64,000 nucleotides of DNA from Craspedostauros australis (taxonomy: Eukaryota; Bacillariophyta; Bacillariophyceae; Mastogloiales; Achnanthaceae): positions 1,054,001 through 1,118,000 of the forward strand of contig JAMXDE010000006.1 of NCBI GenBank assembly GCA_026770025.1, read 5' to 3'. A program made the translations under genes and the position numbers. The first letter of the stretch is position 1; every line of letters begins with the position of its first letter. This document shows, piece after piece, positions 30,814-50,330 of the stretch. The notes under the pieces were generated by a model, which saw only the letters and a list, made by a program, of their open reading frames with translations, was not told where the DNA came from and did no database searches.

Positions 30814-33800
30814 ATGTCGACTCCTGAGATGGACCTCGCCACCTTGGATCACATCCTTGGTGTCATCGGCATCCCTTCGGACTCCACTCCTCGCGACATC
30901 ATCGCCCATGCGGACATCGTCAGCCCTCTTGACCTTGTCTCGCTCACCGAAGATGATCTTCGCAGCTTCCAACTTCGCGATGAGATCGATGATGGCGAAA
31001 CCATCGTCGCCGTACTCGGAGTGAACCACATCCGTAAGATCCTCAACCTTGGCAAGTGGTATCTCACCCAAGCCATCCTCGACGACAATACCTGGAACGA
31101 TCTCGATCGTACCTCGTTCATGGCGTTCACAGCCGAGCAGAACAACCCTTCCCTTCCGTCTTCGCACTCGCATTCGACTGCAAGCTCTCCCATTCCGTCT
31201 CCGATGGGCATGGGCCACCACACCACCACTCCAGCATCCGCATTCCGTCCAGTGACTGAAGAACCTCTGCATGTGAACTTCGCATTCAATCCTTCGGCTT
31301 CAGTGCCTGATCCTGCCTTCCCGCAACCACCTGTGACTCCATCCATGGCAACCTCTTCCAACTTCCAAGGTGTCCATGCCATGGAGCTACCGGCTGACTA
31401 CGTCAAGGAGTTCAGCAAGGCAACCAAGCGAGAGAGCCTGTCGCTCCCGACACTGAAGGACGACAAGCACTTCCTCACCTTCATGCGGACCTTCCAGACT
31501 CTTTCCTTCTCTCATGGACTCAACCACCATCTCGACATGGACTTCATGCCAGCACCCAAGGACGAGGCCTTCTTCGCGAGCCAGAATCGCTACCTCTTCG
31601 CCGTGCTCACTGAGCATGTCAAGACTTCCAAGAGTCGGCGCATCATCCGTGCCTACAAGAAGTCTTGCGATGGCCGTGCGGCCTATGCCGACCTCGTTGA
31701 CAGCTACACCAGTGGCGTCGTCGGCGAGACTCTGTCCATCAAATACAGAGACACCATCGTCGCCTTCCGTCTGGACCAGACTTGGACCAAGACCCGCGAG
31801 CAATTCCTCGATGCCTGGGAAACCAAGTTCGATGACATCGAAGAGCTCGATGATGCATGTGTCAATGAGGCGGTCAAGCAGCAATGGTTGCGTACCGCCA
31901 TCGGTCCTGATGTCGACTTGACTCGGGCTTACACCAACGTGAAGTCCAACTCCCGTCAACGTCACAAGCAATCTCGCGGCTTCATCAAGGTTGGTGTCTC
32001 CTTCGAAGACCTCCTTGAGTTCGTCCGTGATGAGGCACAATCCCTCGACGCCAACCAGCCTCGCACCACATCTCGGCGCAAGGTCAACAACGCCAAGACC
32101 GGCGGCTCCGCTGGCAAAGGCAATGGCAAGGACTATGCCAAGGACGACCGTCGTTCCATCCCCAATGATGAATGGCGTGAGATGTCCAAGGACCAACGCA
32201 AGGCATTCCTCGAAGCAAAGGGAAAGTGGCGCAAGAACAAGGGCAAGGGCAAGGCTGACTCCCACCGAGCTGCCAACAACGCTGCCACATCTTCGGGCAC
32301 CACCGACACTCCTTCCGCAACCCCGTCCGCTGGCAACACGGACTCTTCCAAGGCTGGTGACCAGTCCACTGCCATTGATCGCCTTCTCGCTCAGACCAAG
32401 TCCACCTCTTCGTCTGACGATACTCCTCAACTGGTCTACAAGGGCCAGACCTGGCGCCTTGCCAACTCCACGGTGGTCCGGTACAGCTTCAACAAGCTTG
32501 TCAAGGACCACTCTGGCTCTCTCGTCGACAGCGGTGCCAATGGTGGCCTGGCTGGCGATGACGTCCTCGTTCTCTGCAAGACGGGACACACTGCCGACGT
32601 CAGTGGCATTGGTGACTCTGCCATCGCCAACCTCGACATCGGTACGGTTGCTGGTCTCATCCAGACCACCGAAGGGCCCATCATTGGTAAATTCCACCAA
32701 TATGCGCTCTACGGGAAGGGCAAGACCATCCATTCATCCAACCAGCTTGGTGCCTTCGGAATGGATGTCAACGAACGCCCACGGAATCTCCCTGGAGGTC
32801 GCCAGACCATCATCACACCAGGAGGCCACATCATCCCACTGGCTGTCCGGCAGGGCCTGTCCTACATGGACATGGCCAAGCCCACCCGCTCCGAACTCGA
32901 CAAGTATCCACATGTCGACTTCACCGCGGACGACGAATGGGACCCTTCTTCCCTCGACCAGGAGATGAACCTCGACGACGTCGACGATGATGACGCCGCA
33001 GCACTCCAGCGCCGCGAGAACAACTCTACCGTTCTCACGGCCTACACTGGTGCTCGCCAAGCCGACATCGCTGATAACCCGGGCAGCATCATTGCCACTC
33101 GCAAGCCTGCCGACTACGAGGCTCTCCGACCCCACTTTGGCTGGATTCCAGCTCGTCGCGTTCGCGACACTCTTCGGTGTACCTCCCAATGGTACCGTAC
33201 CGCCGAGCGTTTCTCCATGCGCAAGCATTTCAAGTCTCGGTTCCCAGCGGCCAACGTCGACCGTCTCCATGAGACGGTTGCGATGGATACGCTCTTCTCT
33301 GATACCCCTGCTCACGACGACGGGGTTCCTGGCCATGGCGGCTGCACCATGCTTCAGGTGTACGTCGCCCTCGACTCTCGGTTCACGGCCGGCTTTCCCA
33401 TGCCATCCGAGAGCCGCATCTCCGACACTCTCCATGACTTCATCCGACGCCACGGGGCTCCCGACCTACTGATGTCCGACAACGCCAAGGCGCAGATCGG
33501 TAACAAGGTTATGGAGATCCTCCGGCAGTATCACATCCGTGATCACCAGAGTGAGCCAGAACATCAACACCAGAACGGCGCGGAACGCCGGATCCAGGAT
33601 ATCAAACGCACAACCAACGGTGTGATGGATCGCACGGGTACTCCCGACCGCTTCTGGCTGATCTGCACGCTCTATGTGGTTGATCTCTTCAATCACATCG
33701 CGCAGGTCACCGCTGGCTCCATCACCCCCCTTCAAGCTGCCTTCGGACAGCGACCGGACATCTCCAAGTTCCTGTCCTACCGATGGTGGCAACCTGTCTA

Positions 33801-36399
33801 CTACCGGGTTGACAACCCCACCTTCCCCAGCCAGTCCAAAGAGCGCAGTGGGCGCTGGGCCGGTCCCTGCCTTCACAAAGGCGATGATCTTACCTTCTGG
33901 GTCCTCGACGACGAGACCCAACGACTTCTTCCTCGGTCTGCCATCCGACCTGCCGACGACTCTGCCACCCGCAATCTTCGTGCGGACTTCCCCTTCCCCA
34001 TTGTTGGGGAGGACGATGGCTCTGATGCCATGAATGTGGCGAATGGGGAGCCAGACGACGACATCTCCGTCCCTCCTGACTCCGACCCCATCGTACACTC
34101 CCTCGCCGATTCCATCCTGGCTGACCGCCGCGGCACAGACCCTGAAACAGTGGGGAATGCCAAGGTCCACATCCCAAAGTTCTCTCCCGAGGATCTCGTT
34201 GGGATGACCTTCATCCACGAGAAGGATGGCCAACAAGTCAAAGCGGAGGTGGTGCAAAAGGTCAATGACCTTGATGCAGCCAACCACCAACGCATCAAGA
34301 TGCTACTCGCACTGGCTGATGGGGAGACGCATGACCTCATCTCCTACGTTGAGCTCGCCGACATCATCGAATGGCAACAGGAGCACAACGACGACCCTGA
34401 CGCCAAGTGGGAGTTCGACTCCATCATCGGACACGAGGGTCCCCTCTCATCTTCCTCTCCCTCCTACAAGGGATCAAGCTTCAACGTCATCGTCAAATGG
34501 GGAAACGGCTCCACCTCCACCGAACCCCTCTCCATCATGATTCAGGATGATCCCGTCTCTTGCGCTGCCTACAGCCGGCGCCACGAGCTGCTCGACGAGC
34601 CTGGCTGGAAGCGCCTCAAGCGCCTCGCCATCCGCACCAATCGTCTCGAGCGCCAGGTCCACAAATCGAAGACCTTCAACCACGCTCCTACCTTCCAGTT
34701 CGGTGTCCAAGTCCCTCGCAACCACAAGGAAGCGATGCGACTCGACGACAAGAACGGCAACACTCTCTGGGCCGATGCCGAGAAGAAGGAGATGGACCAA
34801 CTCTTCGGGTACCACACCTTCAAGTCTCTCGGCAAAGGCGCCCCTGTCCCCTCTGGCTTCCAGAAGATCCGTCTCCAATGGGTCTACGCTGTGAAGCACG
34901 ACCTCCGCCACAAGGCGCGCTGCGTCGCTGGTGGTCATCTCACCGACCCCTGCAAGGATGCATCCTATGCAGGTGTGGTCAGTCTCCGCTCTCTCCGCCT
35001 CTCCCTCCTCGCCGGCGAACTCAACGGCATTCCAACATGGGTTGGAGACATCGGCAATGCGTATCTTGAGGCCTTCACTCAAGAACGCATCTGCTTCATC
35101 GCTGGCGACGAATTCGGTGACTTCGCTGGTCATACCATGCAGATAGTCAAGGCACTCTACGGCCTGCGCACATCGGGCGCCCGATTCCATGAGGCTCTCG
35201 CCGACACCCTTCGCGACATGGGTTTCCTCCAATGCCGCTCCGATCCCGACGTCTGGATGCGTGACGCCAACTCCCATTGGGAGTACGTCTGCGTCTACGT
35301 CGACGATCTCACCGCGACGATGGCCGACCCCAAGGCTTTCTTCGACATCCTCTCTTCGAAGTACGGGTACCAGCTCAAGGGAGTTGGTCCTATCAAGTAC
35401 CACCTCGGTGCTGACTTCGGCCGTGATCCCGACGGCACTCTCAAGCTCTCCCCGCAATCCTACATCAAGCGGATGATGGAGAACTACGAACACATGTTCG
35501 GCGAGCTTCCCCACAAGATCAGCTGCCCTCTCGACAAGGCTGACAGTCCAGAGCTCGACACCTCTTCCAAACTTAGCGAAACCAACAAACGCAAGTTCAT
35601 GTCGCTCATCGGTGCACTCCAGTGGTGTATCTCCCTCGGACGGTTTGACATCTCTGTCGCTGTCATGACGCTGGCACGCTTCCGCTCAGCTCCTCGCCAA
35701 GGTCATCTGGATCGCGCAAAGCGCATCTACGGATATCTTCGCAAGCATCCTGATGCTGCCATCCGCTTCCGCACCTGCGTCCCCCGCTTCGATCTTCACT
35801 ACGAGGTTCCCAACCATGACTGGATCTACTCCGTCTACGGGAAGACCTCCGAGGAGATTCCGGATGACATCCCCGAGCCGAAAGGCAAGCCTGTCCGAAC
35901 CACCACGTTCGTTGATGCCAACCTTCTCCACTGCCAAGTCACTGGCAGATCCGCTACCAGTGCTCTTCATCTGGTCAACCAGACCCCCATCGAATGGTTC
36001 TCCAAGCGTCAAGGCACGGTTGAGACCGCCACCTACGGGTCCGAGTTCGTCGCTGCCCGTCAGGCTACGGAGCAGATCATCTCCCTCCGTCTTGCCCTTC
36101 GTGAAATGGGCATTCCGATCGACGGCCCCAGCTGGATGCTGGGTGACAACCAGTCCGTCATCACCTCCTCCACGGTCCCCAAGAGCATGCTCTCCAAGCG
36201 CCACAACGCACTGGCTTACCATCGCGTCCGGTCCGCTGTCGCCGCTGGCATCCTCTACTTCATCAAGATCCCCGGCACGCAAAACGTCGCCGACGTGATG
36301 ACGAAGTTCCTCCCGTGGGCTGTCTTCTGGCCCCTCGTGAAGCCCATCCTCTTCTGGAAAGGACACACCGAGCCCTCTTCCCCGACCTACAAGACCTGA
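30814..36399 (+). CDS. Copia gag-pol polyprotein
   Basis: A 1861-residue polyprotein without interruption. The Gag region occupies the first 550 residues and ends in a Lys-rich stretch without an obvious CCHC knuckle. The aspartic protease motif DSGANGG lies near residue 570. The integrase core carries its catalytic triad (MDTLF, SDNAKAQ, NGAERRIQD) at about 825-930. Reverse transcriptase has GDIGNAYLEA and YVDDLTAT, and RNase H has FVDANL, YGSEFVAARQ and GDNQSV. The order protease-integrase-RT-RNase H defines the copia superfamily. RNase H contains RQGTVETATYGSEF in place of the more usual SSTEAEY form, as I recall for copia elements of diatoms. It encodes what is needed for its own transposition and looks active. 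Confidence 0.96.
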   Translation: MSTPEMDLATLDHILGVIGIPSDSTPRDIIAHADIVSPLDLVSLTEDDLRSFQLRDEIDDGETIVAVLGVNHIRKILNLGKWYLTQAILDDNTWNDLDRTSFMAFTAEQNNPSLPSSHSHSTASSPIPSPMGMGHHTTTPASAFRPVTEEPLHVNFAFNPSASVPDPAFPQPPVTPSMATSSNFQGVHAMELPADYVKEFSKATKRESLSLPTLKDDKHFLTFMRTFQTLSFSHGLNHHLDMDFMPAPKDEAFFASQNRYLFAVLTEHVKTSKSRRIIRAYKKSCDGRAAYADLVDSYTSGVVGETLSIKYRDTIVAFRLDQTWTKTREQFLDAWETKFDDIEELDDACVNEAVKQQWLRTAIGPDVDLTRAYTNVKSNSRQRHKQSRGFIKVGVSFEDLLEFVRDEAQSLDANQPRTTSRRKVNNAKTGGSAGKGNGKDYAKDDRRSIPNDEWREMSKDQRKAFLEAKGKWRKNKGKGKADSHRAANNAATSSGTTDTPSATPSAGNTDSSKAGDQSTAIDRLLAQTKSTSSSDDTPQLVYKGQTWRLANSTVVRYSFNKLVKDHSGSLVDSGANGGLAGDDVLVLCKTGHTADVSGIGDSAIANLDIGTVAGLIQTTEGPIIGKFHQYALYGKGKTIHSSNQLGAFGMDVNERPRNLPGGRQTIITPGGHIIPLAVRQGLSYMDMAKPTRSELDKYPHVDFTADDEWDPSSLDQEMNLDDVDDDDAAALQRRENNSTVLTAYTGARQADIADNPGSIIATRKPADYEALRPHFGWIPARRVRDTLRCTSQWYRTAERFSMRKHFKSRFPAANVDRLHETVAMDTLFSDTPAHDDGVPGHGGCTMLQVYVALDSRFTAGFPMPSESRISDTLHDFIRRHGAPDLLMSDNAKAQIGNKVMEILRQYHIRDHQSEPEHQHQNGAERRIQDIKRTTNGVMDRTGTPDRFWLICTLYVVDLFNHIAQVTAGSITPLQAAFGQRPDISKFLSYRWWQPVYYRVDNPTFPSQSKERSGRWAGPCLHKGDDLTFWVLDDETQRLLPRSAIRPADDSATRNLRADFPFPIVGEDDGSDAMNVANGEPDDDISVPPDSDPIVHSLADSILADRRGTDPETVGNAKVHIPKFSPEDLVGMTFIHEKDGQQVKAEVVQKVNDLDAANHQRIKMLLALADGETHDLISYVELADIIEWQQEHNDDPDAKWEFDSIIGHEGPLSSSSPSYKGSSFNVIVKWGNGSTSTEPLSIMIQDDPVSCAAYSRRHELLDEPGWKRLKRLAIRTNRLERQVHKSKTFNHAPTFQFGVQVPRNHKEAMRLDDKNGNTLWADAEKKEMDQLFGYHTFKSLGKGAPVPSGFQKIRLQWVYAVKHDLRHKARCVAGGHLTDPCKDASYAGVVSLRSLRLSLLAGELNGIPTWVGDIGNAYLEAFTQERICFIAGDEFGDFAGHTMQIVKALYGLRTSGARFHEALADTLRDMGFLQCRSDPDVWMRDANSHWEYVCVYVDDLTATMADPKAFFDILSSKYGYQLKGVGPIKYHLGADFGRDPDGTLKLSPQSYIKRMMENYEHMFGELPHKISCPLDKADSPELDTSSKLSETNKRKFMSLIGALQWCISLGRFDISVAVMTLARFRSAPRQGHLDRAKRIYGYLRKHPDAAIRFRTCVPRFDLHYEVPNHDWIYSVYGKTSEEIPDDIPEPKGKPVRTTTFVDANLLHCQVTGRSATSALHLVNQTPIEWFSKRQGTVETATYGSEFVAARQATEQIISLRLALREMGIPIDGPSWMLGDNQSVITSSTVPKSMLSKRHNALAYHRVRSAVAAGILYFIKIPGTQNVADVMTKFLPWAVFWPLVKPILFWKGHTEPSSPTYKT

Positions 36400-38498: not shown

Positions 38499-39627
38499 CG
38501 TATACCAGCAACAGTCTTGGCAACAGCAACTAGGATGCATGTGTATTGTTGCATCCATCCTGCTGGAGGAGCAATGATCCTTGGTTAGGATTAGCACACA
38601 GGAGCAGCCCAGAATAGAGTAGAGTAGACTGCTTCGCACCGAGGAGTTCAACCTCGCCTTGCTCTGACCGCTCTTCATTGGATCCTCCACATCGCTGAGC
38701 ATGAGGAACTGCACTGCGCATAATTCCCACACAATGTACGCGCATTTTAGCATGTATCGCGTGTGCAATGTAGAGGCCAGTGTTCGATTGGCCATAGTTG
38801 CGCTGGAGATCAGTAAAGAACATGAGGCTTCCTCCACAGAACGGTTCGAACGTGGTTTGATGGGGCACGAACAGCGACTGCGTCAACGACTTCACCCATC
38901 GCATGAGCATGAGATGCGTGGTTAGTCTTTGGGAGGGTGTAGCAACTGGCGTCAATGAAGACAGGTGTGGCGCATGATCAGGAAGCGATGTTTCCTCGCG
39001 AGGATAGTACGCGATAAAGCGACGAAAAAACTTGCAATTGATATGTCTTTGGAGGAAGTGAGGTTCGAAGAGCAAGGCTACATGGGCGGGTTAAGGAGAG
39101 GATACTGCGTCTACTGAAAGCAACGGCACGATGATCCGACGTCAGGGCGATGCACAAGCTTGCATAAAGTAAAGAGACTCCTGCGAACAAAACAGTCCGA
39201 CTCAACAACACGTAAAAAACACGATAATTTTTGGCGCGAACTTTTGTGCGTTCACGGATTGGGGATCATGGCTGTCACGAGCATTGGTGACTGACTTCAA
39301 ACACCCAAAGCAACACACAAAAGCACTCTGGACCTTTGACCAACACATCACCCGAAGCAGAATGAAGCAACGAATCCATCCATGCCATTCACTTGAGCAA
39401 TAGACGAAACAGAATTGGATGCGGGTCTTTGCAAGACAGTCGGTCGCTATTGGACCAAGAGGCAACAAATTTCTGTACCAGAACGTCGTAGACTCTACGC
39501 GGTTACCAATGGTTACCAACGAAAAAATTCCGAAACCACGTCCGTATGTCGTCCGTGTGGAAAAGGCCGATGAAGGGCAAAAAGAGGCACCGAGATGAAC
39601 ACGAAGCGGAGACCGTTTGCAGACAAT
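38499..39627. mobile_element. 1.8-kb inverted-repeat element, copy 2, second part
   Basis: Collinear with about 23977-25072 of copy 1, including CAGCAACAGTCTTGGCAAC and GGTTACCAATGGTTACC. A minus-strand frame (38530-39075) is partly conserved with copy 1 (FTDLQRNYGQSNTGLYIA) but is unrecognised and broken elsewhere. It ends at AAT (39625-39627), where the next element entered. Confidence 0.8.
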
Positions 39628-40209
39628 AGAGAGGTTTCGCATTCCACTCAGCCATTCCCGCGAGGGAGTCATAACCTGATAGAGACATTTATCCGGGGGT
39701 GGCGAGAAATCACCCCCTCGCTCAGTGGAATTGATTTCCATTTCTGCACCAGAAATGGATATCAATTCCACTCAGAGAGTCCCGGCAAAAGTATCACTTC
39801 CACGCGGAGATGTATGTTTATCCAATCAAGAAACTTCTATCGATGTCTACAATAGATTTTATTTCTAGTCTAGTTCTTGCTTCGAAACCATGCTAGTGCT
39901 AGGATTATCGTTTCTCGCAACAGACTCTATAAACATATCCATAATGCACTCCAATTAGAGTATAACCTTCAAAATTGTAATATCATACTGTCAAAATGTC
40001 CATTGATCTCCACTGATCGTCCGCCAAAGACTTCCAGGTCTAAAAGGTCTAGATTCTAATCGAAACGGAATTTGATGAATGACTAGATGGACTAACTTCA
40101 GTCCTTCCAAGAACCAGCAATTCTTGAGAACTCTTGTTGGCACCATGTCGTATGTGACATGGCGTCTGGGGGCCTCTGAGTGGAATACGAAACAATGCGA
40201 AACCTCTCT
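39628..40209 (+). repeat. Left block: AGAG...CTCT element with structured head
   Basis: AAT on both sides (39625-27, 40210-12) and inverted ends AGAGAGGTTTCGCATT / AATGCGAAACCTCTCT. The head has GGGAGTC (39664), the box ATAACCTGATAGAGACATTT (39671-39690), a 7-bp G/C hairpin (39695-39701 with 39711-39717) and a 22-bp hairpin (39724-39745 with 39752-39773, one mismatch, 5-nt loop). GTCCCGGCAA follows at 39779-39788. The sequence ATTCCACTCAG occurs at 39641, in the 3' arm of the long hairpin, inverted in its 5' arm, and inverted near 40181. No coding potential. Confidence 0.7.
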
Positions 40210-40214
40210 AATAG

Positions 40215-40373
40215 GACCCACTTGAGTGACGGGACCTGCAGTCCGTCCTGGGATGGTGGCAACATACGGGGCTTTCGACCAAGCCACCCACATATTAATA
40301 AACTAGATAAAAATATAAGATGCACTGTGGACGCCGATTTTGCTTTAATGTCTTATTTTAAGTTTTATGGACC
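40215..40373 (+). repeat. 159-bp inverted repeat, left copy, of core transposon
   Basis: Reverse complement of 44658-44816 with two mismatches. It begins GACCCACTTGAGTGACGGG and ends TTTTATGGACC. Confidence 0.95.
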
Positions 40374-40646
40374 CATCGATTTCGCGCTCATCTAGACACG
40401 ACTAGCGCACTACGGCCAGATTCGGTGTCTTGGTGCCTTGATTCGTATCGCCAAAAGAAGAATTATCGATGTCAATTGCAGTGCTAATTTATTTTCTTAG
40501 TCCCTCCAAACCGTGATACGTGTGAAACCGTTGAATTGGCGTTACGCTGTGAACACGCGCACCAATCACGGACGATCCAGCAGTGAAGCAGTTGCACAGA
40601 CTCGTACGACATCGATAAGACTCATAATCTGCATCGTTACCCCTTT

Positions 40647-43600
40647 TCATCTTAATTGGGTTTCACGTGTGTAATAACTTGCCTCCATTGCAGCTCTGAC
40701 TTGCCACAACAATTGTGTTTTTATATTTTGTTCCACCAACTCTGGAGATTCCGTATTCTCCTTCATTGTTTGTGTCTCGCACGCAATTTGCTCCGATGCT
40801 TCGTTTTCTTCTTGTTGCAGTGCGATTTCCTCCTCATCTGCTGTTGTGTGTTGTGCAGGCACGATCTCTGTGTCGGTGCTGTTCGCGTTCGTCGGTGGTG
40901 GGGCGATTGTTGTGTTCGTTGTGTTTGTCGCGGTTTTGTTGATCGTGGTTTCCGGGGTTCTCGTGTTCGCGGCCTTCGGTTTCGTGCGCTGGTACGACGC
41001 GGACATGTATAGCTTCACTTGCATTGGGTTCACGTGCACCCGCGCATACCAGTCAGTCTTCATTTTGGTCGTCTCCATGCACCGCCTGAATGCCTCGTAC
41101 TCGGTCGGTCTGTTCTTGGGGTCCGCGCGTGCCACTCTGCACACCTCCTCCAACACTTCCACCAGGTATGGGCAAATGGGCTTGTTGCATCGTATGGCTT
41201 TCGCAGCCCAGCCAGGTCCAGCCAATTGCAGGTGTTCTGTTGCTGCTGTGGTGTCCTGCAGTACACTACTTACGTCAGGTGTCTCCAAGGCTGCCATGTT
41301 GATCGCTTCGAGGTACGTCAGCGCCTTGCTTTCGGTGGTGCTCTTCACGAACCTGAGGGTCTTTTTCTGCTTCCGCGGCGATGTTGCTGTGAGTGGTTGT
41401 TACGTTGATTGGTGTTCGTTGATGATGGGAACCTCGAAATTCATGACGTCATAGTCTTCCCATTCCGCTTCCTCCACACGCACTGGATTAGTGACATTTG
41501 AAGCTGCAAGTAAGTCTGTATAGCCATTTCTGTGTTGCATCTCGTGCGTTGATCGTACATTCATGCCCTTCGCACGGAACCTGTTGCACGGATTTGTCTT
41601 GTGCATCACACAGCGACCTTCCAAACCTGATGCATCAACCAAGACAGTGGTAGTACCTCTGATATTTCCCATTCGCATCGCGTTGAAGATTTTGTGTTCG
41701 GTTTGAATTTTGCCGCCGCTTTGCATGTATGATCGTAGTACGATAGTGATGTAGGCGAAGTGAGTGTCGATTCGTCCTTTGCCGGTTTGGGCTTCTGTGT
41801 AGATCCAAATGACAAATTGGGGAAGTCCGTTGCGTGACATGTTCTTGTTGATCCGCGATGAGACAAGCGCGATGTGCTCATGGCTGGCAAAGCAGCCCGC
41901 GTTGTCTGACTGCAGAATGATTTCTGTGACTGATGGTAGGAGATTGTGTACCTTCTTCTGGATGATTTTGAGAAGCCCACCAACTTGAAGTGTGTCTTGG
42001 GTTGGCCGGCCATGAACAATTATGTCAACAAAGCGATACGTGAATTTGTCATTTTTGCAGATGACAATCATAACACCAAGGAGCGACATGCCCTTCTTGC
42101 CCCAGTACTCTGTCTGCAATTCTCCTTGCGCTGTCAGTAGAATCTTCTGCTTATGGTCGATGACAACATAGGCGCACTTGTCATTGTTGTTGAGCTTGGC
42201 CTTGTACTTGTTCATATGCTCGAATTGGACCTTTGCTCTCACTTGGTGTGCCACGTACGCAATGATCTCGTTGTTGAAGCCCGATACCACCTCCAGCATA
42301 CTGCGTAGTTCATCCTCATGGTCGCATAGATGATTGGCCTTGAGTGTCTCAATGAATGGGGCGACGTGAGCATCCATGAATCGCATTGCTTCTCCACATC
42401 TGTCGCATACCTTGCCTTGTTGATTGTGCAATGGGGGAAAGGGTGTTGGCATCACACTCTGCGATTGCTGTGGGAGGATGGACGACCATGCATGTCTTGT
42501 TGGTGTTGGCAGGCACTGTTGTGTTTTTGGTGCTGAGTGCAGACTTTGCCTGTCGAATTTTTTAATCGTGGCAAAGGGCGAAATGAGCGCAATGCATCGG
42601 GTCTTCTTCGCACTTGATCTGCATGTGCGACGCGGTATACTCCCACTTGAGGAATGTGATCATAAGGTCCAGATCGCGCAACAATGTCTCACAGGTTTGA
42701 ATGTACTCCACGGTTAGGTCGTCGTGTCCGTCATCACCGTTGAATGAATCCTCGAGTAGGGTATTCAAGCGCACGAGCATCTCCTTCAGCATCTTGGTTG
42801 CCATCCAGAAGTAGTTTTCAAAAGAGGAGAGACCAGTAACCACTTTGCCTCTGCGCATGAGCAGGCCTGTCATTTGTTGGAATGCTGGCTCACTGACTGG
42901 GTTGTTTGTTGTAGTCTTGTATATTTGGAACAGCTCGTCGACGCTCGTCTCGCCACGTTCGAATACTGACACATTTTCAAATATCACCCCTCCCCACTTG
43001 ATGTTGTGACAAAGTCTTGCCTCGTATGTGGTAGTGGTGCTGATGAAGGACACCATGCTGTCCAAGCTGTATGCGCTGATGCAATAGTTGTAGACAGCAG
43101 CACCAAGCACATTGCCCTTGCGCAAGAGCTCGTAGTAGTTGCGCAGAGTGAGGAGCTGGCCCCGCGTGATGGTGTATTGCTGTGGCAAGAGGCCGAGATG
43201 CTGAACGTCAGGAAGTTCGCTCTTGTATCAGGTGAGGAGGTTTGTGCACTGGCGTGGCAAAGCGGACATGGCAAGAATGCACCTTGCTGTACGTGCGATG
43301 TTCTTCTCACCGACGAGGCAAATCGTGTAGAGGTTGGGAGCTAGCTTGACTGGCAGCAAGTCCACTCCTGCGCGCACGAACGCCACCACTTGCTCCATCT
43401 GCGGAACTGGCAAGGTCGTGGCTGGGATCAGCGCTTTCCACAGCGCATTGGAGGCCACCGCAAAGATCTTCTTCACTTTGCTCCACACTTGCCTGTCGGA
43501 ACTGCGCCCCAATACAAATCCGCAACGAGGAAAGTCAGCAAGAACAGAAGCGAGGGTCTTCCCTCCGAGCTCCTGCAAGACCTCGCGCATGGTTTCAAAT

Positions 43601-44229
43601 GCATCAGTCCTCTCCTTGTTGGGTTTGAATCCGAACCTTCTCGCGCTTGATTTCCTGGTCTTGGTTCTGTTGTGTCTCTTGGGGCAGTAGGCTTCGTAGT
43701 CGCCAGCGTTGCCACGTTGGATGTGCTTGCCTTTCTTTTCTGGTTGGATGGCTGGTGCGGAAAGGGGTGTGGGGAGGGATTCCAGAGTCGAGACGCAGAC
43801 ATTGACATGCACCTTTGTCCCTCCATTGGAGCCGTGTCTGAAGGCCTGCACAGTGACCTTGGAGGTATCAAGAATCATGCCATTGTTGGTGGTGATGTGC
43901 ACACGGACGAAGAGCTTCTTGTTGGTTGCATTGAGTGCGCGAACCTGTTCATTGTTGGTGAGGATCTCAACGTCACACTCGTTGTCGAAGGTCGCACCTT
44001 TGAGCGCAGGAGGCAAGACCTTGTTTATTGTAGGCGGTGGAATGTGTTGCTTCCCATCCATACCCAATGGAGGCAGAAGCTTCTCACCAGTAGATGGTAC
44101 AAACAGTTCCTTGCGATTGATCGGATCCAGTGGAAACGGACGCACAGATGGAGAAGATGGCATACGTTGCTTCTTGGAGGGAGAAGGATTGGCGTCCTTC
44201 GACGCAGCTTTCGTGGTAGAGACAGGCAT
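40647..44229 (-). pseudogene. Unclassified DDE-like transposase gene with two stops and one frameshift
   Basis: Likely start ATG at 44229 (MPVSTTKAASKDANPSPSKKQR, with an NLS-like KKQR). The product would be about 1190 residues, but TGA (43228-43230) and TAA (41400-41402) interrupt the frame. It also shifts near 42565, beside an A-run (RC ATTAAAAAATTC), after which reading resumes. A CDRCGE motif is followed by a probable catalytic region: YVVIDHKQ, then LQSDNAGCFASHEHI, then IYTEAQTGKGRIDTHFA, which could supply D, D and E. The combination SDNAGC...EAQ.GKG..D recalls a motif I associate with uncharacterised animal and protist transposase-like proteins; no superfamily is assigned. The long C-terminal tail (40647-41348) is Thr/Glu-rich. 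Its place inside near-identical inverted repeats argues that it is, or was, the transposase. Confidence 0.7.
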
Positions 44230-44657
44230 GACGCTGATTGGCACTGATGGGAGGATGGAGATGAGTAGTATTGATGGAAGTGAACTGAGCAGGAGGGATG
44301 CAAGAAGGTGACGATACAAACACTACATGAACATGCAACAAGCACCGTACACCACCACGAAAAGCAAAACTCGATTTGGTGGCAAAATGTGAGGAGATTT
44401 GTGACATGTGACGAGAGTCAAAATTTAAATTTGAATCGTAACGTCCAATAACGGCGACTTATTTCAAAAACGTGTTCGGACAGGTCGAACAATGACGTGG
44501 CTGAAATGTCAAATTCCGTGCGCAACCCGTCAAAAAATGGCCTTTCCCGAACGTGTCTGGGCACATTGCGTTGTTTGCATCGGAAAAGCTAATCAATGCC
44601 TTGCGATCATCACGGAGCAGCGTGCATATTCGACCAAGTGGACCGTAAATCTACAAA

Positions 44658-44816
44658 GGTCCATAAAACTTAAAATAAGACATTAAAGCAAAATCGGCGT
44701 CCACAGTGCATCTTATATTTTTATCTAGTTTATTAATATGTGGGTGGCTTGGTCGAAAGCATCGTATGTTGCCACCATCCCAGGACGGACTGCAGGTCCC
44801 GTCACTCAAGTGGGTC
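44658..44816 (-). repeat. 159-bp inverted repeat, right copy, of core transposon
   Basis: Inverted copy of 40215-40373. The right block starts two bases after it, at 44819. Confidence 0.95.
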
Positions 44817-44818
44817 AT

Positions 44819-45920
44819 AGAGGCCTATCGCATTTCACATTGGGAGTCCCACGGTACAAAATAACCTGATAATGACATTTTTAGAGGGGCAACATGCGAA
44901 CTTCCCCCTCGGAAAGTGAAACTCGATTGCGTTTTAGGAGCCAAAAACACAATTGAGTTTCACATTGCAGTCCCGGCAATCCAACCTTCCACGTGTTGGA
45001 ACGAAACCAATGGCCAATCATTTCTCTTCATTTGCAGCAATGTTGAGTCGTTCTTGTCGTGCTGATGATAGTTCTTTGAGATGCTAGTGATGATGAAACT
45101 AGCATTCCGAATGAGGGGTGCATGGAGCGATAGAGAGCGATTACGATGTCGAATATGCCTATAAGCTTCACATATGATATCTGCGCGCAAGTATCAAAGG
45201 CCACCTTCATGATCCAGCTGAGGAATCTTTGCTCATTTCCTATTTCACCCGATACAACATCCGCGGCGTGTTCCTGATGCTCTGAGGACTAGTGTCGTCA
45301 GATACGACCAGGGACTTCTACCAACGCGCATTTTGCATCCTTTGGAGATCCTGACTGCCATATCGGAAGTTGTTGGTGGTCTCCAACCAACCCAACATGC
45401 AATCGCAATAGTTCTGTGTAGACTGCGGTAAGAGCTTCTGTTGGACAACAAGCTGATGATCTATCTCCATGATACAGTGATCAAGAGGTTTCTGTCGTCG
45501 ATATTGGCAACAGAGCCTTGAACAAGCCATGAATTATCAGGGACAAAATGCTTGCGCATATGTTACCGGACCTCTGTTAGTGGCAAAGTTGAGACAGAAG
45601 AGATGGCAACGAAACTCTCACACCAGGAAGTTCCTAAGAGGAGAAATAGGGATTTGCGTTGCGTGCAACTCAGAGCCCACCCATTAACGATCCTACCATC
45701 CTTTGGTCTCCACAAGTGATGCGATAACCTGCAACGAAGCATTCAGATCATATCAGTCTAAACTCGAACTCTATTCTACAGAAGAGAAGCCGATTCAGTC
45801 ATGTTGGTCGTCTTTCTGAGTAGGTCACGAACTAGTCACTAGTACCAATGTGAAATCCGAATGTGAGTGCCACATGTGACATGAACACAGGGGTGTGAAT
45901 GTGAAATGCGATTGGCCTCT
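44819..45920 (+). repeat. Right block: AGAG...CTCT element with structured head
   Basis: Starts AGAGGCCTATCGCATTTCAC and ends with the inverse, ATGCGATTGGCCTCT. The head mirrors the left block: GGGAGTC, the box ATAACCTGATAATGACATTT (44861-44880), a G/C hairpin (44884-44889 with 44905-44910) and a 20-bp hairpin (44916-44935 with 44944-44963, one G-T pair, one mismatch). GTCCCGGCAA is at 44970-44979. TTTCACATTG recurs at about 44833, in the 3' arm of the long hairpin and inverted near 45860, and as TTTCACATT at the right end. The remaining 0.9 kb has no gene. Confidence 0.7.
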
Positions 45921-46080
45921 AATGAACACATCAACAGAGAGCTCTCACTCTCCTCTTCCTAATGATACAAAGATGTCAGGCAACGGCTGTCAGCTCATCG
46001 AATGGCAGCTTGTGCCGTCGGCGATAGGCCAATGGTTACCAATAATTACCAAAAAGCCACAAAAAAGCGCAAATTAGCCA
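45921..46080. mobile_element. 1.8-kb inverted-repeat element, copy 2, last part
   Basis: Collinear with 25070 to about 25220 of copy 1 (AACAGAGAGCTCTCACTCTCC, then GGTTACCAATAATTACC). Its terminus AAATTAGCCA is followed by CCAG instead of CTAG and lacks a few terminal bases, so this end has decayed. Confidence 0.8.
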
Positions 46081-47732
46081 CCAGGTGCGCTTTTCGGGTT
46101 TTTGGCTGATTCACTTTTCTGTCTCCACGCTGCGTGCAATGTTCAGTAGACTAAGTCACGAGAAAAACGTCAAAATCGGACAACACGTTGAGTGTTCACT
46201 GTGGGATCAAGACCAAGATGTACGTTCCAGTCACATGGGAACCAAGATGAAGATGTGTCATTGATAGTATCATTTATTGCTGCGTTGATGTGATGGTCCG
46301 AATGGAATGCATAACGAATCATGTCACAGCGGAAGAGAAGTACCGCAACGACAGCCTCTCATAAGTACGTATGTACAATGACAATGGTATCATGAGTATG
46401 TCAGGTCTTGGGTCTGGGCGATGGCTGCTTGAATGGTTCCAGTGGTCGAAGTCCTCCTCTCTTCTGACCACGATTCTGGTGGGGGGTGATGGCTGCATGG
46501 ACAGTTCCAGTGGTCGAAGTCTTTCTCTCTTCTGACCACGATTCTGGTGAAGGGGTGTGGTGTATGTTGTATCTGTGTGGCGGAAGTCGCAGTCGCAAGG
46601 GTGCTTTCTCCTCCTCCGGTTGGAGACCTGAGCTGGTGTCGGTAGTTCCAGCCACATTCCACACCACCGGACTCGTTGCATCTCGCACACTCATGGCACA
46701 TCGAACACACAACACACTCGCGATATTCATAGGAATCACTCCGTTGCCTCCGAAATCGACACAAAGTCTCATAAACAATCAATCAGCAGATTGGAAACGC
46801 CGGCAACCAGCAATCAACTAACAACCAGCAGGCGTTGCAAGGAGACGACAAACCTCCCTGAGGCCGCAACGAAGAGAAACAACTCAAAAGGTACGCACAC
46901 ATCACGAAGAAAGGGGGATGGAATACTGGCTGATGCATGAGGAAGAATCGACAACGCACACACACGCGCACGCACAGAACCACACCAACACAACGGAGAG
47001 TGCATTCATTTGCAAAACCGACGGCACGACGCACGTGAACTGCGGATAGCATCGCAGATGGCGCAGCAGCATTGATGAAACGGCAGCACGCACCAACGCT
47101 CAAGATGCAAGATACCTACGAGTATGAGCACCATACCTACCATACGTTCCAGTCAATCTTCGCGGCCCGTTATGCAGCGATGCTGCGGCGCCTGTCGATG
47201 GCGACTATCTCGTCCAGGATGCCTCATGTCATGCCAATGCCAGACGCGCACCACTCCACATCAAGGTGTTCAAATCCCGCGCCTCCTCCAAGCCGATTTA
47301 ACTCATGCAGCTCTTTGCCATAACCATCTTTCCTTCTTTCCCCTTCCCTTCGCACGCGCAACTGATACCTCCTGTGTGTGCAATCTTGACGTGATCGAAT
47401 CGTTGCGATGCTGGGTCGATTGATGGATATCGTTGATCTTCATTGATTGCCGTCGTTGTCGTTGCTCCCCACCACGTCTCCCGTCATTTCACATTCCAAC
47501 AATTTGGCGCAAACAAACGAACACATCACTGCAACGTTCACAATCGTTGCCGTTCTTCGTGGGACGAAACTCGCCACCAAACGTATGCCTGATGCGCGCA
47601 TTGCCAATCTCAACCCATACGTGATCCGTACCAACCCATTCCCGTGGCACGTACGCATACATGCATGCGTACAAATGCGCCCGCCGTACAGAACCAAGCA
47701 GTGTCACGACGACGACGAAGACAACAGCAAAG
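46081..47732. other. Intergenic region before the secreted Cys-rich gene
   Basis: No convincing gene. A 68-bp unit (GATGGCTGC...CACGATTCTGGTG) is duplicated in tandem at about 46420-46555 and explains overlapping open frames on the minus strand. The promoter of the next gene should lie in the last few hundred bases. Confidence 0.55.
46420..46555. repeat. 68-bp tandem duplication
   Basis: Two adjacent copies with a few differences, each containing CCAGTGGTCGAAGTC and TCTTCTGACCACGATTCTGG. Confidence 0.8.
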
Positions 47733-50330
47733 ATGCTCTACACAAAGGCAGCCTTCGCGTCCTTTCTCGCTCTCGCCGAGACGGCAACGGTCCACGCCGT
47801 GCTCCGCGGCAACAGGACTCCCGTGGATCCAACCGAGAAACTCCGCACGATGGTGACGAAGACCCGCATCCTCAAGGGCGCCGGCATCGACCTGAAAACC
47901 AACAAGGGCAACAAGAGAAACGCTGCGGTACCTACGGACAATCAGGCTGGTGCAGAAACAGCCGCGCCAACCGCATTGCCGACTGCCTCGCCGACCTCCC
48001 AGCCCACTCGCCTGCCAACATCCAAACCATCAGCTGCCCCAGCCGTCTTCGATTCCACCATCTCCGTTGTCTGCAAGCCCGATGGTGCCACCATCCTCTC
48101 ATCACAAGAGGTAAGCGCTAAGACCATCATCTGCGATGCGAACAAGCCATCCTGCCGCGAGGCCATCACCGCAGTCAAGGAGTCCAAGCAGCTGCAGAAC
48201 TTCTTCGCGTGTGCAGGAGACCTCGGCGAAGGAGCTGCACGCAAGCTCTTTACCAAGTACGCATCCAGCGACATCCTTGCTGGCCAATTGACCCTGGTCG
48301 CTGCCACCAAGCCACTCCTCGTCACCGAGCGAGCGGATGCCATGGACACAGCATGCGCGGCCATCGCTGCGATGCAATCACCTGCCGTCGCAGACCCATG
48401 CTGCCAAGGATCCTCGGGATGCACCTCAGTCACCGGTTCCGCCTCCAACTCTCCTCCATTCATGACCGTCGCGATCACTGCATGCACCGGTGACAGCGCC
48501 TGCAAGGATATGGGCCCCAATCCCCTCATTCTTGATTCTTCCTGCATTGGCACAAGTGCATGCGAGTTGATGAACGAAAATGAAATCAACCCGTCCATCA
48601 CAGGAGTCACCTTCGTCGGTGAGATGGCATGCACCACCCCTCAATCTTGCGAGGGAGTGGGGCGTCGTTCTCATGGTGATGTCACCATCCAGACCGGTGC
48701 ATGCATTGGGTCAGACGCATGCAAGGCAGCTGGACGCCGTGTCGTGCAGAAGGCCCTCTCCAACAACCGCAGCCACATTGACATCGGTGAGAATGCGTGC
48801 GTCGGCAGCAATGCCTGCAAGGATGCCCATTCCACTGTCAATTATGGTACTGCTGGCAAGCGTGCAGGCAGCCTGACCATTGGTGCTGGCGGCTGTGCCG
48901 CTGATGGGTCATGCGAGAAGATGGGCTTCAATGACGGGATGACAACCGACCTCGTCGTCCCTCTTGGTGGATGCGGCAGTGTTGAAGGCTGCAAGGGATG
49001 CATGACGAAGACGGAGTGCAACTCCGACGAAGTCTACATCATCAGCAACGTGGATGAGGCCTGTCCAAAGGGAGGCAACGACAGCAACAACAATCCAACA
49101 GGAGACAAGGTGGATGAGTACTGCATTGGCAAGGACACCTTGCCCACAGACTCTCCAACTTTTTCTCCTACCCCTTTCCCCACACCTCTCACGTCAGCTC
49201 CTACATCAGCCCCAACAGGTCCGACAGCAGCTCCAACATCGGCACCAACAAGCGCGCCAACTTCAGCACCGACCTCGGTCCCAACAGCTCCAACAGCAGC
49301 ACCGACGAGCGCACCAACTTCAGCACCGACGAGCGCTCCGACTCCCCTGACATTCCTGTCTACTCTCAGAACACCAAACACAGTCGCAGGGATGACCCTT
49401 CTCTCCACTATCCAGAACAAAGCTGATCTCCTCGGGATCTTCGAAAACCAGGCAAGCATTGCTGACGGCGTCGCTCTCTTCAATACCATCAGTGGAAAGA
49501 CCGGTGTCCTCGAGGTCTTCAGCGCAGCCGCCGCTGCCACGGGTGAGATGTTCACGGGAACAGCTGCTGCTGCTATTGGTTGGTGTGGCATGGCAGGACG
49601 CACATGCTGTGACGGGTTCGAAGCCTGCTCCTGGACCGGCATCGCATCTATCGCATCCAACAGTTGCATCGGGGACTTCGCTTGTAAAAAGATTGAGACT
49701 CAGTCCATAATCTTCCAGGGATCCTGCCTCTCCGGAGCTTCTTCCGGTGAATATGTATGCTTCAACTTCAACTTCAACTCTGGAAGTGGCAAGGCCTCCA
49801 TCATTGGGCCAGGATCATGTATGGGAAACAAGGCATGCTACACCCTTGCGGATCACTCCAACGGCGACGCCATTATTGGCGCAGGATCATGCACTGCAGA
49901 AAGGGCCTGCTTTGGCATGGGTTCTGGACCAGAAGACTATGCGACCGTAACACCCACCAAGGGCAATGGCACCACTGACAACAAGCGTGTGTCCAACACT
50001 ATTGTGGGAGCCGGATCCTGTGTCAACCACCGCTCGTGCGACCTCATCAACGCACACTACGACGGTCTCGAACCATACAACCAGTTTGAGGGAGACACAA
50101 CTATTGGTGACGGTACTTGCGTGCCAGAGGAGTCCTGCCGTTTCCTGGGCTACGGCGAACACTTTACCGCCGACATCATTCTCTCCAACAACGTGTGCAA
50201 CGATCTCTCTGTCGTGGATAACACCAAATGCAACCGATGCCAACACGAAATCACTGAGGGCAACGCCTGCAACTCTCTCACTGCTGTCTTGACCATTACC
50301 TCCGGCAGCTCTTGCCCAGCCTGCACCTAA
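47733..50330 (+). CDS. Secreted Cys-rich repeat protein with Pro/Thr linkers
   Basis: An 865-residue protein. The ATG at 47733 is chosen because it gives a clear signal peptide (MLYTKAAFASFLALAETATVHA); the open frame upstream is not needed. A first Pro/Thr/Ser linker is at about residues 80-105, and a second, made of repeated APTSAPTSAPT units, at about 470-540. Both sides of the second linker carry many copies of a repeat of 20-40 residues with the pattern I-G-x-x-(S/A)-C-x-(G/A)-x-x-(A/S)-C (for example SCIGTSACELM, ACIGSDACKAAG, SCMGNKACYT). Repeats of this kind occur in predicted extracellular proteins of diatoms. It probably acts in the cell wall, matrix or surface; ligands are unknown. 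No membrane anchor is evident at the C-terminus. It has no functional link to the P450 genes around it. Confidence 0.88.
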   Translation: MLYTKAAFASFLALAETATVHAVLRGNRTPVDPTEKLRTMVTKTRILKGAGIDLKTNKGNKRNAAVPTDNQAGAETAAPTALPTASPTSQPTRLPTSKPSAAPAVFDSTISVVCKPDGATILSSQEVSAKTIICDANKPSCREAITAVKESKQLQNFFACAGDLGEGAARKLFTKYASSDILAGQLTLVAATKPLLVTERADAMDTACAAIAAMQSPAVADPCCQGSSGCTSVTGSASNSPPFMTVAITACTGDSACKDMGPNPLILDSSCIGTSACELMNENEINPSITGVTFVGEMACTTPQSCEGVGRRSHGDVTIQTGACIGSDACKAAGRRVVQKALSNNRSHIDIGENACVGSNACKDAHSTVNYGTAGKRAGSLTIGAGGCAADGSCEKMGFNDGMTTDLVVPLGGCGSVEGCKGCMTKTECNSDEVYIISNVDEACPKGGNDSNNNPTGDKVDEYCIGKDTLPTDSPTFSPTPFPTPLTSAPTSAPTGPTAAPTSAPTSAPTSAPTSVPTAPTAAPTSAPTSAPTSAPTPLTFLSTLRTPNTVAGMTLLSTIQNKADLLGIFENQASIADGVALFNTISGKTGVLEVFSAAAAATGEMFTGTAAAAIGWCGMAGRTCCDGFEACSWTGIASIASNSCIGDFACKKIETQSIIFQGSCLSGASSGEYVCFNFNFNSGSGKASIIGPGSCMGNKACYTLADHSNGDAIIGAGSCTAERACFGMGSGPEDYATVTPTKGNGTTDNKRVSNTIVGAGSCVNHRSCDLINAHYDGLEPYNQFEGDTTIGDGTCVPEESCRFLGYGEHFTADIILSNNVCNDLSVVDNTKCNRCQHEITEGNACNSLTAVLTITSGSSCPACT

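Follow-up and report, generated by a model that had tools for sequence, protein, structure and literature searches.

The closest described systems to the locus reported here are DNA transposons. In the account of PMC4482050, the Pangu group is characterised by ANT target-site duplications (TSDs), terminal inverted repeats (TIRs) starting with AG and two open reading frames, the second of which has no known motif, and its hosts include one heterokont; according to PMC12730594, Pangu corresponds to Harbinger2 in Repbase. For PIF/Harbinger transposons, ORF1 is described as binding the TIR and bringing the transposase (PMC2836001), whilst the ends of piggyBat and piggyBac are described as palindromes bound by paired DNA-binding domains (PMC11707139).

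The window that we analysed, a 64,000-nt stretch of the 74.8-Mb genome of the diatom Craspedostauros australis (C4:1054001-1118000, contig JAMXDE010000006.1), holds two look-alike blocks with a shared head, which an earlier sequence-only reading had proposed as either a structured RNA or a transposon end. All the positions that it gave were confirmed on the sequence, and it is the transposon-end alternative that has stood: both blocks are complete non-autonomous DNA transposons, with matching TIRs and TSDs. They are small non-coding elements of the Pangu/Harbinger2 type, filed as such by their TSD, TIR and ORF traits, and the 160-nt head is their left end.

Two Pangu-type elements and a later insertion

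Table 1. Features of the two elements and of the transposon between them (positions in the window).
Feature	Positions	Strand	Remarks
TSD AAT preceding left element	39625..39627		flank reading
Left block, complete non-autonomous Pangu-type element	39628..40209	+	family A, AGAGAGG...CCTCTCT
Family motif ATTCCACTCAG inside left TIR	39641..39651	+	unpaired copy
Conserved first box ATAACCTGATAGAGACATTT, left block	39671..39690	+	
G-run/C-run hairpin, left block	39695..39717	+	
63-nt palindromic hairpin, left block	39717..39779	+	family-motif copies form the outer arms
Conserved last box GTCCCGGCAA, left block	39779..39788	+	
Left-block tail	40143..40209	+	small palindrome CCATGTC...GACATGG, inverted family motif (40176-40186), TIR
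AAT after left element	40210..40212		presumably shared with right element before the later insertion
Separate central transposon at the junction	40215..44816	-	TIRs of ~160 nt; TSD ATAG 40211-40214 and 44817-44820
Right block, complete non-autonomous element	44819..45920	+	family C, AGAGGCC...GGCCTCT
Family motif TTTCACATTG inside right TIR	44833..44842	+	unpaired copy
Conserved first box, right block	44861..44880	+	
G-run/C-run hairpin, right block	44884..44910	+	
Palindromic hairpin, right block	44913..44966	+	outer arms are TTTCACATT copies
Conserved last box GTCCCGGCAA, right block	44970..44979	+	
Right-block tail TIR	45898..45920	+	with inverted family motif AATGTGAAAT
TSD AAT following right element	45921..45923		

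The inverted repeats of the two window elements are 17 and 24 nt long (Table 1). The left block matches many places in the genome, and the right block at least 42 nearly full-length ones, its own included, a lower bound drawn from the best 40 of 96 candidates scored; the other 41 are 93-96% identical to it and have sharp ends. Long relatives of the left block, of 4.1-5.3 kb, have only nucleotides ~1-177 (202 in one) and 517-584 in common with it, so that the short left block, which retains only their head and ~68 nt of their tail, looks like a pair of transposon ends. In autonomous copies the head is accompanied by two convergent genes, one for a DDE_Tnp_4 transposase and one, on the head side, for ORF1. 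The transposase is a 444-aa protein with the DDE_Tnp_4 domain (PF13359; E 4.5e-19 in L031) in the long copies examined, and all five transposases scanned contain this domain (three from the A group, one from D and one from E; families are given below).

Twenty-two elements were read at both ends. In 20 of them the flanking triplets are identical and of the form ANT; the two exceptions lie at C5:2505285 (ATT/AAT) and C70:122653 (CAT/AAT). Read on one side only, the flanks of 90 of the 98 heads gave AAT 43 times, ATT 34, ACT 7 and AGT 6, in a search that itself demanded A-N-T before AG. In the heads shown, which cover all eight families, the TIR starts with AGAG or AGGG, the TIR search having demanded AGRG, and the TIRs have the Pangu length of 11-40 bp and its beginning in AG or GG. 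Since ANT TSDs and AG TIRs are here combined with two ORFs, the second without a known motif, and the transposase is a DDE enzyme of the IS5/Harbinger type, we file the elements as Pangu-type. Membership in PIF/Harbinger sensu stricto was rejected, as the TSD is ANT and not TWA, and ORF1 has no Myb/SANT match.

At the junction of the two blocks, the original order was presumably AAT-left-AAT-right-AAT, into which a third, unrelated transposon then entered, duplicating ATAG. The minus-strand ORFs of this central transposon are broken into pieces, for which a Pfam search returned no match, and its ends have at least 40 matches, its own two included (from the best 40 of 124 candidates scored). 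A 4-bp TSD is present in four of the five copies of its family that could be clearly read at both ends, the window copy included, the others being ATAG (C57), ATAT (C7) and ATAA (C40); the flanks of the C37 copy do not match. The TIR of a family F element also contains a relative of the central transposon (L086, C7:1496920, and L127), with the TSD ATAT, a second example of the central transposon's family at a Pangu end.

Elements of the Pangu-type group insert beside and into one another, and the window pair is one such tandem. In 14 of the 90 heads with a readable flank, CTCT or CCCT stands immediately before the ANT, where we estimate that about one such 4-mer would be expected by chance; by eye, these 4-mers are mostly the terminus of a neighbouring element of this group. 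In three heads (L099, C17:124824; L092, C13:245058; L109, C34:567213), the end of another Pangu-type element lies at an ANT inside the palindrome. Along with the 14 ends that abut, these cases suggest insertion near resident ends.

Some smaller observations may be added here. Several autonomous copies also have the small palindrome of the left tail (40143-40162), which the right block has in part, and its GACAT is also present in the first box of the head. Elsewhere in the window, an open frame of 1861 aa with a reverse transcriptase domain (RVT_2, PF07727, E 5e-21) marks 30814-36399 as probably a Copia-type retrotransposon, and an 889-aa open frame at 47661-50330 carries DUF7640 (E 8.5e-10) and a PT repeat.

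The head, its palindrome and the family motif

With up to two mismatches, the pattern of the first box occurs at 158 sites in the 74.8-Mb genome, against 10 for a reversed-pattern control. Of these sites, 98 distinct heads were read (100 places among those listed), and families among the rest may have been missed. Sorted by motif, the heads make up eight families (A 20, B 8, C 26, D 8, E 9, F 18, G 7, H 2), four heads having been assigned to other families by hand. In the 90 heads for which a TIR could be located, its start is 42, 43 or 53 nt from the first box. The last box is kept in 91 of the 98 heads, across all eight families, and lies 108-110 nt from the first in 83 of these 91; in the other eight this distance is shortened (55, 78, 79) or lengthened (111, 119, 128, 128, 129). 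The A heads L006 (C12:1249178) and L027 (C17:119499), one in a short and one in an autonomous element, share the same 30-nt loss, which leaves the same smaller palindrome. An IMG/VR search with the first box gave two matches, both without head context, which we took as chance.

In the window itself, the two first boxes are equal at 18 of 20 positions and the last boxes at all ten, the G/C hairpins start where they had been placed, and the long hairpins stand at 39724 and 44916. The inverted arms were found independently as 30 nt on the left (90% complementarity, 3-nt gap) and 26 nt on the right (85%, 2-nt gap), and both cores are more stably folded than shuffled sequences (39664-39786, z -7.2; 44843-44975, z -3.6). 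Strong folding, together with the position of the head upstream of ORF1 in autonomous copies, could speak for a structured or hairpin RNA made from the head, perhaps a small RNA source or a 5' leader of ORF1. We nevertheless regard such an RNA as very unlikely. No Rfam family was found at E up to 1 within 39400-46200, and the head is kept in elements without ORF1. The G/C hairpin is not universal, as it occurs in 75 of the 98 heads and in none of the 18 of family F. Nor is there a universal closing helix: the proposed pairing of GGGA with TCCC into a three-way junction is not a trait of the group, since only 43 of the 98 heads have a GGGA at 12 nt or less from the first box, and families C, D, F and H contribute none of these. 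In the window, too, GGGA stands at unlike offsets, +36 on the left and +23 on the right, where it precedes the GTCCC of the TIR and does not adjoin the first box. Finally, copies of the stem motif occur outside the stem, a third and unpaired one in the TIR and a further one in those tails that were read from families A, B, C and E.

A covariance model, as the earlier reading had recommended, recovered both heads in the window but also the other strand of the palindrome, and RNAalifold returned 13 pairs only. The underlying alignment (A1, 32 rows) combines 30 of 40 distinct cores with the window's two, omitting L001 (identical to the left core of the window), two C, two D, two shortened and three duplicated hairpins; in it, MAFFT set the arms one base apart between families.

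The arms themselves were compared by permutation, with one representative for each of the eight families and thus 40320 arrangements, the families being not fully independent because A and B are related. When the 5' region is paired with the 3' arm, the summed score of 144 is reached by the true arrangement only. Cross-family scores are 4-9, except for A with B (16, 19), and own scores 9-29; family H, with an own score of 9, fails to exceed the best that it reaches across families, and it ties in all three matrices. The most complete hairpins are exact: the best of family A pairs at 31 of 31 positions (C14:1438254), and the 30-bp palindrome of family F, with a 1-nt centre, at 30 of 30 in 12 of 17 heads, whilst pairing is less complete in families D, E and H. 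Together, the permutation result and these exact hairpins argue that the covariation is genuine and general at the level of families, and looser within them. Among 16 distinct family A hairpins, pair 25 is T-A in 7, C-A in 6, C-G in 2 and T-G in 1, and pair 4 is unpaired in 12; family F has a single compensated change (CG to GC), accompanied by one unpaired intermediate. The proposal that the arms covary at fixed spacing has hence survived in large part: the arms change together and are family-specific, and the spacing is mostly kept, with the eight altered spacings and the indistinct family H as exceptions.

From family to family the palindrome differs in sequence, yet it remains symmetric and for the most part matches the tip of the element that carries it. 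In its outer part, the 3' arm repeats in direct orientation the stretch found immediately inside the TIR (in family F, TGTAATTTGA in both), and the sum of 76 for this match is attained by the true pairing alone out of 40320, family H again tying. The tails that were read from families A, B, C and E have an inverted copy. In ten autonomous elements of A or B, the 9-nt motif is present three to four times, at the ends only, and that of the other family never. Motif copies at both the tip and the far end of a 4-kb element point to a repeated protein site, and not to a folded RNA, for which two pairing partners would be enough.

The inner stem is a different matter. Without the outer 16 and 14 nt it still pairs family-specifically (sum 83, reached by 2 of 40320 arrangements, one of them the true one), the A and B arms pairing with each other about equally well. 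We considered whether it consists of further copies of the TIR motif and rejected this, as the match is not significant (3448 of 40320) and clear copies are seen only in A, E and G. Moreover, the hairpin centres occur in reverse-complement versions, as C in 12 and G in 5 of 17 family F heads, and as CAC/GTG and CCG/CGG in family A. This inner pairing and the two-way centres could reflect a second dimeric site, a DNA hairpin or cruciform, or repair by template switching.

The second of these possibilities would have the palindrome read as structure, as a DNA hairpin or cruciform or as a fold in a single-stranded intermediate, so that shape and boxes are recognised and the inner sequence is free as long as it pairs. 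Family-specific pairing beyond the TIR motif fits this well, as do the fully paired palindromes of family F with their compensated pair, the fully paired A head, and the reverse-complement centres, which the inversion of an extruded palindrome would give. However, among the 16 distinct hairpins of family A, six have the mismatch C-A at pair 25 and 12 are open at pair 4, the stems of families D, E and H are less fully paired, and the unpaired motif copies in the TIR and tail are left unexplained; on balance, we hold this reading to be rather unlikely. Template switching in replication would also keep the arms alike without selection. The arms could then be maintained mainly by mutation, through such quasipalindrome correction or conversion between repeats, with little function for the stem beyond its motif copies. 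The reverse-complement centres of A and F and the common unpaired intermediates in family A are in keeping with such a process, but the kept last box and its distance of 108-110 nt from the first, in all eight families, point to selection on a footprint, and we think a mainly mutational origin improbable.

ORF1, the transposase and the choice of ends

The A and B elements amount to a natural swap, in which nearly one transposase goes with two kinds of ORF1, and the motif, at either end and in the palindrome, changes along with ORF1. Mean transposase identity is 93.4% within A, 91.2% between A and B and 90.2% within B, whilst the corresponding values for the ORF1 domain are 91.7, 72.9 and 87.8%. 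In the ORF1 tree, A is set apart from the rest with a support of 100/99, and B as its own clade reaches a support of only 80/30. B as one clade is rejected by the transposase coding DNA (AU p 0.023) and by the ~220 nt just inside the tail motif (AU p 0.019), and is not rejected by the transposase protein tree (AU p 0.127). The domain alignment (A2, 16 rows) was made without L033 and L071 (stop codons), L041 (near-identical to L040) and L046; the trees were built without L046 for ORF1 and protein, without L046, L069 and the E elements for coding DNA, and, for the tail, also without L042.

Because the head adjoins ORF1, their joint inheritance alone could be linkage, and only the tail motif argues otherwise. 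This motif fits the ORF1 type in all four B tails and in all nine readable A tails (the tail of L042 is unreadable). The coupling is not strict, as shown by L069 and L068, whose ORF1 proteins are 65% and transposases 88.5% identical, and whose tail motifs are one base apart. Still, the match between ORF1 and motif at both ends, despite near-equal transposases, is most simply read as ORF1 binding the motif there and also on the palindrome.

Neither of two ORF1 proteins had a Pfam family above the curated cut-off. The alignment of the ORF1 domain against Pfam gave a best E of 0.00062, in one of 16 members, with no family common to more than four, and a PDB sequence search of this domain showed no recognisable DNA-binding domain; the binding by ORF1 that we propose is therefore drawn by analogy. 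ORF1 (L033:703-2544, L043:750-2564) has long asparagine runs, whose length is very different between copies.

By this analogy, we consider it probable that the palindrome is an inverted pair of ORF1 docking sites at the left end of a DNA transposon. The conserved transposase would read the conserved boxes, and ORF1 the family-specific motif, which stands in the TIR and at the tail and also forms the outer part of each stem arm. Two ORF1 sites in inverted orientation at a fixed distance from the tip could make the left end the loading end, in an asymmetric synaptic complex. Whenever ORF1 changed, all copies of the motif would have to change too, which may be what appears as covariation of the outer stem. 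ORF1 docking on the TIR motif leaves the symmetry of the inner stem unexplained, as this is mostly not a copy of that motif. Perhaps both kinds of recognition are combined: a eukaryotic IS5-like DDE transposon could read its left end partly as a hairpin or cruciform, through a palindrome of fixed length whose inner sequence is free if paired, together with a changeable ORF1 docking motif, which would let the recognition of ends be re-addressed as a module with the catalytic protein unchanged, an idea that we put forward as doubtful.

Were the inner stem read as structure, this would be an unusual structure-read end in a cut-and-paste DDE transposon. The swap between A and B offers a testable handle on the choice of ends in two-protein Harbinger-type transposons, on the need for a second protein, and on how non-autonomous families change masters.

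Likeness to known transposons

The nearest likeness is to Pangu/Harbinger2 within the PHIS superfamily (PIF/Harbinger-ISL2EU-Spy), with which the elements of C. australis share ANT TSDs, AG TIRs, two ORFs, a DDE transposase of the IS5/Harbinger type and a second ORF without a known motif, as described in PMC4482050. The words hairpin, palindrom and subterminal are absent from the main text of that paper, and we found no description there of the left-end palindrome, the boxes or the motif families. The ANT-targeting Harbinger of the brown alga Ectocarpus is also alike, in its ANT duplications and its two tail-to-tail genes, according to the main text of PMC12477816; hairpin and palindrom are absent from it, and the likeness rests on TSDs and gene order.

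In PIF/Harbinger transposons with an ORF1, such as Ping/mPing and Harbinger3_DR, labour is described as divided between a DNA-binding ORF1 and the transposase, much as we propose here, in a text from which palindrom is absent (PMC2836001). Their TSD is given as TWA in PMC4482050, in contrast to the ANT of the elements here. Both kinds have non-autonomous partners.

The transposase of piggyBat and piggyBac is one that we take to be unrelated to that of the elements here, and the likeness lies in the ends: subterminal palindromes are bound by paired domains, and the left and right ends are unlike, in the account of PMC11707139. There the palindromes are short, of 14 bp (imperfect) and 19 bp, whereas the left end described here carries a long one.
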